Below are positions 13,511 to 42,958 of a DNA stretch of 64,000 nucleotides, one piece after another. Within the stretch, counting starts at the first letter, position 1. Each line of letters opens with the position of its first letter. The DNA is taken from the NCBI GenBank assembly GCA_020861185.1, contig JAJBSV010000009.1:79077-143076 (forward strand). The letters are read 5' to 3'. This DNA is from Ruminococcus sp. (lineage in GTDB: Bacteria; Bacillota; Clostridia; Oscillospirales; Ruminococcaceae). The notes below the pieces were generated by a model. That model saw only the letters and a list, made by a program, of their open reading frames with translations. It searched no databases and was not told where the DNA came from. Position numbers and translations under genes: made by a program.

Positions 13511-14191
13511 TCAGCTATCCTTGTTTTTGGCGGAAAGCCTGAGAATCCACCTGTATGCGGCGGACGTGAGCGCAAGAAGGATAAATCCGCCATAGACCGT
13601 CCCGGCAGAGGGAATACTTAGCGGCAGGAACTGCACTCCGAAAAGACCACCGTTTGTAAGAAGCTCACGCATGAAGCCGAGGAACAATAATGCTAAATCA
13701 TAGCCGATGATATAGAAGCCGCAGAGCTCCGCCATAAAGCCTCGTTTGAGACGGTAGAACTTCGATTCGGTCTTCATCGTGATGAATGAGTTTGTGATTA
13801 AGAGCGGCGCATATACTCCGAGTGCCGAGAACTGAGCCGGCATAATGTTCTCCATAAGTATCGCGACGGGGACATATACCAAAGACGCCACGAAAGTATA
13901 AACTATTATTCTGACGGTATAGACGAGCTTTCTCGGGACGAAGGAGCAGATTAAAACCGTTATGAACGTTACGAGACTGAACACGATGCAGAGCGCCAGT
14001 GCGTTCTGAAAGCTTGTTGCGACAACTACCGCCGGAGCGATTATCGAGCCGGTTGAAAGAAGGGCGTTCGAAGTTAAGACCGCTTCCTTGCCTGCGGTGC
14101 TCGCCTGAGAAGGAACAAGACCGTGGAGGTCGCTTATGTCGGAAACGGAAGCGCTTTCGTGTCCCGAAGACCTGAAGCCGTTAAACTTCAT
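13511..14191 (-). CDS. RnfE-like membrane protein lacking the cluster cysteines
   Basis: A 226-residue RnfE/NqrD-like protein with about 35 polar N-terminal residues and six membrane helices. The two conserved cysteine motifs of RnfE (LGLCPLLAVS and VTNC) appear here as LLSTGSIIAPAVVVATS and ITNSFITMKTE, so both cysteines are absent (Ser135 replaces the second). Start at ATG 14191 overlaps the rnfD-like stop by 11 nt; a longer frame to 14230 lies inside rnfD. With the RnfA- and RnfD-like neighbours it probably forms a membrane complex, but the known Rnf iron-sulfur centre cannot form normally. Confidence 0.8.
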   Translation of the reverse strand: MKFNGFRSSGHESASVSDISDLHGLVPSQASTAGKEAVLTSNALLSTGSIIAPAVVVATSFQNALALCIVFSLVTFITVLICSFVPRKLVYTVRIIVYTFVASLVYVPVAILMENIMPAQFSALGVYAPLLITNSFITMKTESKFYRLKRGFMAELCGFYIIGYDLALLFLGFMRELLTNGGLFGVQFLPLSIPSAGTVYGGFILLALTSAAYRWILRLSAKNKDS

Positions 14192-16221: not shown

Positions 16222-16250
16222 CCAAAAAGGGAGCGGATAACCGCTCCCTC
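16222..16250 (-). terminator. Intrinsic terminator of the large non-coding transcript
   Basis: On the minus strand GGGAGCGG, loop TTAT, CCGCTCCC, then TTTTTGG: a perfect 8-bp GC-rich stem with a T run. Confidence 0.9.
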
Positions 16251-16920
16251 ATTATATCAATTTATCACCATATGCTGTGAATCTTTCGATTCTGCGTCTT
16301 CGACGCTTTGTCGCTTTTGGTATCAGGTTTTAACTTAGCTTACTTCATCACGCTTCGGCTCTAAAATAAACCTCACGCATGAACTATGTTATCGTCAAAG
16401 CTTGGTATCGTCAGATATTATCACTGATGCGACTACAGCCAATTTAAAGTCTTTGTTGGACTCACCCTCTCACTGCTGAATTTTGATTTCCTTCTTGTGA
16501 AACAGTTTCATGGTGCATCAAATCCTTTCGGGCTTTAAACCTTTTTGATTGGATTTTCTTGATTTATGTTGGGCAAGATATTTTCTTGCTGTTACAGAAT
16601 CAATTTCATAGCTTGTATCTTTTATCTTGAGAAATTGGTTTCGTACCTAAGAGAACATCTCGTAATGTGTCAAGTAAAGATTCTATTACTTTTGAATCTG
16701 TGAGTCGGTAAGAGTTATGCTGAGAATGCCGGACTCACCTCTTTCGTTTTATTTCAGTCGTAAATTCCGCTTCTTGCTACTCTTAATACTTTCATAACAA
16801 TCGCTCCTTTGCTTTTAAGACGCGGTGTTATTGGTTTGTGATTCTGAAGATTTGTTACCTCTTCATCGGAACCCTCTCCCTTTTAGATTTCAGTGACTTT
16901 TTATTTATCTCTCTTCTGTG
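16222..16920 (-). ncRNA. Candidate large non-coding RNA of about 700 nt
   Basis: A leftward transcription unit with a consensus promoter (16926-16954) and a perfect terminator (16222-16250), yet no ORF longer than about 30 codons on that strand. Near the 3' end are a GAATC/GATTC hairpin closed by a GAAA tetraloop (16279-16292) and a GCGTC/GACGC hairpin (16294-16306). A GTGAGTC/GACTCAC stem spans 16700-16738. The motif GGTGAGTCC occurs twice, near 16462-16470 and 16731-16739. Two 13-codon ORFs (16754-16795 with AAAGGAG, and 16470-16511) end 14 and 2-3 nt before these motifs. It could be a large ornate RNA such as the ROOL/GOLLD/OLE types, or a badly decayed gene; the promoter, terminator and tetraloop favour RNA. 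Confidence 0.55.
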
Positions 16921-16925
16921 ATTGT

Positions 16926-16954
16926 ATTATAACACACCCGAATTCAAATGTCAA
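16926..16954 (-). promoter_or_regulatory. Consensus promoter of the large non-coding transcript
   Basis: On the minus strand a perfect TTGACA (16949-16954), 17 bp, perfect TATAAT (16926-16931). It is among the strongest-looking promoters in the window. Confidence 0.85.
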
Positions 16955-17119: not shown

Positions 17120-17482
17120 ATGGATGAAAACGAATATATGCCCGAAATCTATACCCTTGAGGACGAAGAGGGCAATGTCGGCAACTATGAGCTTATAGAT
17201 GTTTATGATGAAGGCGACAGCACCTATTATGCACTCGCCCCCTATTATGAGAATTCCGAGGATCTCGTGAACGACAACGGCGAGTTCATCATTCTGAAAG
17301 TAGAAGACACCGGCGACGAAATCACTCTGGTTTCCATCGAGAGCGAAGAAGAGTATGGCAGAATCGGTCAGATCTTCATCGACAGATTTGATAACTGGGA
17401 CGATGAGTGTGAGTGCGAATGCGAAGATGACGACTGCGACTGCAACGACGAGGATTGCTGCTGCCACCATCACGAAGAATAA
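17120..17482 (+). CDS. DUF1292 protein with a Cys/His-rich acidic tail
   Basis: A 120-residue acidic protein. Residues about 5-90 form the DUF1292 domain (YTLEDEEGNVGNYELIDVYD, YYALAPYYENSEDL, EFIILKVEDT), a small beta domain of unknown role common in Bacillota. After residue 92 there is a tail of Asp/Glu, eight or so Cys and three His, ending DEDCCCHHHEE, which looks able to bind metal ions. ATG 17120 follows AAAGGAG; the longer frame upstream overlaps the promoter. Transcribed alone from a consensus promoter, suggesting high expression. Confidence 0.87.
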   Translation: MDENEYMPEIYTLEDEEGNVGNYELIDVYDEGDSTYYALAPYYENSEDLVNDNGEFIILKVEDTGDEITLVSIESEEEYGRIGQIFIDRFDNWDDECECECEDDDCDCNDEDCCCHHHEE

Positions 17483-17538
17483 AAACTTCGCATAGAATAG
17501 CTCATGTGAGTTATACTAACCTTAGAATCCATTCTGCC

Positions 17539-17566
17539 TTGCTCGATTAAGCATGGTTTTTATAAT
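17539..17566 (+). promoter_or_regulatory. Promoter of the 6S-like RNA
   Basis: TTGCTC at 17539-17544 and TATAAT at 17561-17566 with a 16-bp spacer. Confidence 0.5.
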
Positions 17567-17570
17567 CCAA

Positions 17571-17740
17571 CACATATATTTAGGGAATCTCGCTCCGGGC
17601 GCGGGGATGCAGACCTCCCAAAGTACGCACGGTTGATGCCCCCGCACGACCCTGTTCAAGTACCGAGGACGAAGGGAGCACGAAACGTCAGGGCTGATAC
17701 CCACCTGCTTCGTGCGGGTTTTATGTATCATGTGGCGACA
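17571..17740 (+). ncRNA. ssrS: Structured RNA, possibly 6S RNA
   Basis: A non-coding stretch with a promoter just upstream and a terminator at 17762-17797. The ends can pair (CACATATAT at 17571-17579 with the TGTATCATGTG at 17724-17734, one bulge). Inside, GCGGGG pairs with CCCCGC and GCACGAA pairs with TTCGTGC around CAGGGCTGATACCCACCTGC. A closing helix, an open middle and a long arm over about 170 nt fit 6S RNA, the RNA polymerase-binding regulator of stationary phase. The match is from general architecture only; another structured RNA is possible. Confidence 0.5.
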
Positions 17741-17761
17741 AGGCGGAAGCCCCCAAAAATT

Positions 17762-42881: not shown

Positions 42882-42958
42882 CTGGGTGTAGCTCAGCTTG
42901 GTAGAGCGCTACCTTGGGGTGGTAGAGGCCGTGGGTTCAAGTCCCGTCACTCAGACCA
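42882..42958 (+). tRNA. tRNA-Pro (anticodon GGG)
   Basis: A 77-nt cloverleaf: acceptor CTGGGTG/CACTCAG, D arm with GTAGCTCAGCTTGGTAGAGC, anticodon stem CTACC/GGTAG with loop TTGGGGT (anticodon GGG at 42916-42918), T arm GTGGGTTCAAGTCCCGTC, discriminator A and encoded CCA. It reads CCC (and CCU) proline codons. Confidence 0.95.

Follow-up and report, generated by a model that had tools for sequence, protein, structure and literature searches.

What does a cell make from some 700 nt of DNA that is enclosed by a promoter and an intrinsic terminator and carries no reading frame of ordinary length? The question is raised by a minus-strand unit in the window, the whole 64,000-nt stretch of DNA analysed here. 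The unit lies between rpe and a divergent gene at 17121..17482 (+), which we take to be of DUF1292 type, and next comes 6S RNA (17528..17753, plus strand), an RNA regulator of transcription. Both serve as syntenic markers; the DUF1292-type gene is the neighbour in the genus, in sister genera and in another family. The 6S sequence of the window scores 38.2 bits against an Rfam cut-off of 46.4 and those of relatives at the equivalent place score above it; the one in the window is likely a true, divergent 6S RNA.

The promoter, TTGACATTTGAATTCGGGTGTGTTATAAT at 16926..16954 (-), is a 12/12 match to TTGACA-17-TATAAT, with a 17-nt spacer and a TG that extends the -10 element; every genus homologue examined has a promoter resembling TTGAC[AT]/TATAAT upstream of the RNA. 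The terminator, GAGGGAGCGGTTATCCGCTCCCTTTTTGG at 16222..16250 (-), is kept in the close clade and contains the strong stem GAGGGAGCGGTTATCCGCTCCC and a T-run at 16250-16227. The earlier note on this DNA had described a perfect promoter (16954-16926) and a perfect terminator around this unit, as well as hairpins in series at the 3' end, and both descriptions hold; the hairpins GCGTC-GAA-GACGC and GAATC-GAAA-GATTC precede the terminator. Judged from its sequence, the RNA is a stand-alone product of a near-consensus promoter, ended by its own terminator, and transcription would be strong. A leader of rpe was considered and rejected because a perfect promoter at 15981-15952 serves rpe itself (15914-15279, minus strand) and because the downstream genes differ among relatives. 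Just 3' of the terminator, the stretch at 16211-16081 (-) is conserved in the close clade and contains a second terminator-like hairpin, CCGCCGGAAATGGCGG-CTTTT, together with the inverted repeat GGCAGGAGGCTC...GAGCC...CCTGCC; it may be a separate small RNA.

The unit had been likened to the large ornate RNAs while being assigned to none of them. Searches of Rfam with the window and its relatives, at gathering and at permissive thresholds, returned only 6S, tRNA and weak chance matches, so that the lack of an assignment to ROOL, GOLLD, OLE or HEARO stands. The likeness itself fares less well. Phages and prophages are the typical home of ROOL and GOLLD, which often lie near tRNA arrays; the RNA gave zero matches in the viral contigs, phages and plasmids searched, and the window has a single tRNA, at 42882. 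The models of 6S RNA and tmRNA do not match the RNA either, and the window holds no tmRNA. By minimum free energy, the fold of the RNA outscores those of dinucleotide shuffles (z = -4.8); because its complementary strand also beats them (z = -3.6), a structured RNA cannot be argued from folding energy alone. Covariation among homologues, which the earlier note had named as a check, is modest and confined to the 3' domain of the close clade, and no genus-wide fold was seen. This domain, at 16274..16439 (-), is closed by a GCUGU / ACAGC helix with three pairs that show compensatory double changes; in all, double changes occur at 4 of 47 predicted pairs, three of them in one helix. More distant members of the genus have RNAs that stop soon after the last motif, and since the 3' domain is missing there it is an add-on rather than the core.

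A ROOL- or GOLLD-like structured RNA in which start sites are incidental would account for the size, the separate promoter and terminator, the low folding energy and the covariation that was seen, and GOLLD itself binds ribosomes in pull-downs (PMC12286853). It is nevertheless very improbable here, given the absence of an Rfam match, a homologue length that ranges from ~430 nt to >1,600 nt, a structured domain that is not genus-wide, and the lack of any phage, viral-contig or plasmid match. The RNA does resemble ROOL, GOLLD and OLE in its hundreds of nucleotides, its own transcription unit, its variable insertions and its uncertain function; it differs in being chromosomal, beside 6S RNA, and in being made of start sites and mini-ORFs.

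What recurs along the RNA is a motif, GAAAGAGGTGAGTCC / GGNTGATTCC(R)ATG, that is complementary to almost the whole 3' tail of 16S rRNA. The 16S 3' end was taken from relatives, the assembly of the window being without that sequence; the tail reads GGCTGGATCACCTCCTTTCT, and the pairing partner of the motifs is GGAUCACCUCCUUUC. Individual sites pair with it at -10.5 to -18.1 kcal/mol. The mean for sites in the RNA is -15.1 kcal/mol versus -10.9 kcal/mol for gene start sites, a comparison that is biased because the RNA sites were chosen by motif. Motif density is 22 times higher within the RNA than in its flanks, and among the 51 gene start sites of the window only one has TCC directly before the start; a less refined count points the same way. 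GGTGAGTCC, noticed previously as a recurring motif, does recur (second copy at 16466-16458) and is a hyper-extended Shine-Dalgarno (hyper-SD) sequence complementary to the 16S 3' tail. Extended, start-codon-proximal SD pairing with the 16S 3' end is documented for ribosomes of Staphylococcus aureus and Firmicutes (PMC13009471), but there it is found in ordinary mRNAs, whereas here it is repeated several times in one RNA without a long ORF. Elsewhere in the window, a single GGTGACTCC-GATG start site was found close to the start of a gene; it lies at 14199-14195 (-) and precedes a membrane electron-transport-type gene (13511-14191).

Some copies of the motif lack a start codon. One, GAAAGAGGTGAGTCC at 16731..16745 (-), has no ATG behind it and pairs with the 16S tail at -18.1 kcal/mol; the same AUG-less state is present in nearly all genus homologues. 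A second, GAGAGGGTGAGTCC at 16458..16471 (-), is invariant in the close clade and pairs at -16.2 kcal/mol. The first is predicted to pair with downstream sequence in a GTGAGTC / GACTCAC hairpin (16700..16738, minus strand) that would hide it; this stem, noticed previously, is located at 16738-16732 / 16706-16700. Over 22 distinct sequences the hairpin averages -8.9 kcal/mol versus -5.7 kcal/mol in shuffles, significant in the close clade and weak or absent in several others.

Repeated sites of this kind, some without a start codon, bring to mind sponge RNAs such as CsrB and CsrC, which carry a repeated CsrA site. The resemblance lies in an abundant-type RNA with a short binding motif in variable copy number; the difference is that the motif here is not a CsrA site, complements the 16S tail, and is mostly coupled to start codons. 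The RNA could accordingly be pictured as soaking up, with its SD-like copies, C/U-rich small RNAs that normally block Shine-Dalgarno sites. Such a role seems quite improbable, as it leaves unexplained why start codons, reading frames and stop codons are conserved.

These frames modify the description of the unit as one without an ORF. No ORF of at least 30 codons exists on the transcribed strand between promoter and terminator, and to that extent the description stood; the strand does, however, carry mini-ORFs of 3 and 13 codons with strong SD-ATG starts. A scan for ATG codons that follow strong anti-SD pairing and open a frame closed within 25 codons gave four matches in the window RNA (two of them overlapping), versus 0.3 expected in dinucleotide shuffles. 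Mini-ORF 1, ATGAAGAGGTAA or MKR* (16855..16866, minus strand), has the SD AAAGGGAGAGGGTTCCG immediately upstream, with a duplex of -12.2 kcal/mol. Mini-ORF 2, MKVLRVARSGIYD* (16754..16795, minus strand), comes from the start-site scan and homologue comparison and follows the SD AAAGGAGCG. Mini-ORF 3, MKLFHKKEIKIQQ* (16470..16511, minus strand), follows the SD GAAAGGATTTGATGCACC with a duplex of -13.0 kcal/mol. Most RNAs of the genus contain 2-6 SD+ATG mini-ORFs each versus 0.1-0.6 in the shuffles. The two longest, both of 1.5 kb, are less clear: L026 has 5 versus 1.25 (one shuffle reached 5) and L015 has 1 versus 0.4.

The homologues of these mini-ORFs keep their frames. Mini-ORF 1 is MKR* or exactly MKRxxxx* (7 codons in 9 distinct sequences, with TAA, TAG or TGA stops). 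Mini-ORF 2 appears as MKLARSWI*, MKVARSGI*, MKLARSGTGDSK*, MRAARSGIC* and MKVLAKARNGTCE*; its AR[SN] core is kept across the genus while Arg codons swap among AGA, AGG and CGC and Ser codons between AGC/AGT and TCN. Mini-ORF 3 has the counterparts MKLSYKVEIKI* and MKLSYKVEIRIQQ*. A second clade of the genus has, in this order, MKR* or MKRxxxx*, MKLARSWI*, an AUG-less motif, MNVNKHKIL* and MNRCxTA*. Here MKLARSWI* has 8 distinct DNA versions, with 42 synonymous versus 14 non-synonymous codon differences (column-permutation p = 0.0015), and MNVNKHKIL* has a synonymous excess (p = 0.0005) and, in one species, an in-frame 9-nt insertion. All 12 versions of MNRCxTA* have 7 codons, and this fixed length, with exchanged stops, is shared by MKRxxxx*. 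For ORF 1, for ORF 5 and for ORF 2 of the window clade (U2, 42 nt, p = 0.65) the synonymous test does not reach significance, and the codon evidence therefore comes from relatives. Conservation of start, frame and stop together with synonymous changes thus characterizes two mini-ORFs, and conservation of length and stop two more. For the first two, the comparison indicates selection to be translated, and translation of the mini-ORFs as a group is probable.

Of the 31 genomes of the genus, BLASTN found homologues in 30, the sole miss being an 86% complete genome; the 29 genomes searched from other genera gave none. The named carriers are metagenome-assembled genomes of uncultured Oscillospiraceae and Clostridia. 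The U1-U2 mini-ORF unit stands in three tandem copies in one species (L088, G014) and in two in another (L028, G028), which indicates that the RNA grows by duplication of units. A decayed protein gene, or chance, would fit the missing long ORF and is otherwise scarcely credible: the promoter, start sites, frames and stops are conserved over the genus, units occur in tandem, and no homologue was seen to encode an intact long protein across the region. The RNA is not a decayed gene, and its conserved core consists of arrayed translation-initiation sites and their mini-ORFs. In its composition it is very probably a series of hyper-SD sites, most of them followed by a mini-ORF of 3-13 codons, interspersed with AUG-less copies and structured segments.

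The RNA fits the loose kind of small-ORF coding RNA, and it bears comparison with two better-known sorts. The dual-function RNAs RNAIII, SgrS and SR1 are likewise of regulatory size and have a small ORF, but theirs is a single ORF of tens of codons, whereas this RNA has several mini-ORFs, mostly of 3-13 codons, each with a hyper-SD, plus the AUG-less copies. In the bar RNAs of phage lambda an SD is also followed by very short ORFs, and translation of these minigenes perturbs the translation machinery through tRNA depletion; the present RNA differs in being chromosomal and conserved, in having many units and in not being known as toxic. A limited search of Rfam and open-access papers found no precedent for an array of hyper-SD mini-ORFs with AUG-less copies. 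The RNA is thus provisionally a new class, strongly promoted and matching no known family, provisional because in a search of that scope a description elsewhere is possible.

The best explanation for the whole, held with somewhat less than even confidence, is that the array engages 30S ribosomal subunits and makes tiny peptides. The subunits would dock at the sites by base-pairing along almost the full length of the 16S 3' tail, and the docked ribosomes would make very short peptides and leave quickly. Through such rapid docking, short translation and release, it is proposed, the RNA would engage a disproportionate share of initiating ribosomes, and it would then either titrate or report 30S and initiation capacity, with SD-hiding hairpins setting the threshold. 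Translation in vivo, 30S capture and a sensing or buffering role for the RNA are what we infer, and it is with more reserve that capture is put forward as the main function. One point against this explanation is the conservation of the peptides, which suggests that they matter; simple ribosome titration does not need that.

The leading rival to 30S capture takes up this point. In it, the RNA is a polycistronic mRNA whose products are the micropeptides, mostly short and basic (MKLARSWI, MNVNKHKIL, MNRCLTA, MKLFRR...), acting in trans as regulators or signals. The AR[SN] peptide, with its synonymous bias and its switching between codon families for Ser and Arg, argues for such products, as do related MK[LI]FRR peptides that recur within one RNA and an AARNA* end common to two sister-genus loci with synonymous differences. 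The leader peptide peTrpL, reported to act in trans (PMC7298713), offers a precedent. On the other hand, MKR, MK, MY and MYS are so short that they are not obvious products, the peptide sequences vary from genus to genus whereas the start-site motif is retained, AUG-less copies are conserved, and neither an export signal nor a processing gene was noted next to the RNA. The micropeptide reading is rather unlikely, and it predicts initiation at every site just as 30S capture does. Less likely again is a ribosome-dependent regulatory RNA, in which the mini-ORFs would be leader peptides in cis and ribosome occupancy or stalling would remodel the RNA so that a 3' effector (sRNA) part becomes exposed or hidden. 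The motif-hiding hairpin, and in the close clade the covarying 3' domain downstream of multiple leader-like ORFs, are consistent with it, but distant genus members have no such domain, the downstream genes differ, and an intrinsic terminator stands in between.

An RNA built of 3-13 codon ORFs is overlooked both when non-coding RNAs are searched for and when ORFs are annotated by their length. If confirmed, the array would represent a ribosome-engaging RNA of a new kind, adjoining 6S RNA in dominant gut Clostridia, and it would become testable whether bacteria buffer or sense initiation capacity by a dedicated RNA or broadcast micropeptides from one transcript.

Beyond the genus, the position between 6S RNA and the DUF1292 gene holds a promoter followed by SD/mini-ORF sequence at 12 of 30 sister-genus loci fetched, and like architecture is seen at three further loci of the family and at L090, L151 and L171 in another family. 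The total outside the genus is about 15 family-level and 3 other-family loci, usually divergent from the DUF1292 gene beside 6S RNA. At the sister-genus loci the excess of mini-ORFs over shuffles is modest, with none at L111, and about half of the checked family loci lack the RNA at this position and have another gene there. A scan for the exact 15-mer motif matched 18 of 394 genomes of the order and 5 of 391 of the class, versus 1 for a reversed-motif control. The matches at L033, L041, L053, L058, L090 and Peptacetobacter L037 are promoter-plus-mini-ORF units, look-alikes whose homology is putative. Other matches, such as L109, are start sites of ordinary genes, and because such matches occur the motif alone does not identify the RNA. 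It is a doubtful further proposal that Oscillospirales-like gut Clostridia carry, beside 6S RNA, a widespread class of chromosomal RNA under strong promoters that would be a dedicated buffer or sensor of translation-initiation capacity, capturing 30S subunits at several sites that complement the complete 16S 3' tail and letting them translate nothing but mini-ORFs.

L033, L041, L053 and L058 are compact versions (~250-400 nt) that stand beside other genes and have a first ORF such as MKDTPPESNLK*, then GGTGAGTCCGATG minigenes of 2-5 codons. In another genus of the order, L092-L096 are promoter-driven RNAs, of which those tested do not match Rfam; they carry GAAAGAGGTGAGTCCAATG and a mini-ORF, MVTEE.SY.FAGLAATL*, inside which lies GGACTCGCC, a complement to the motif.
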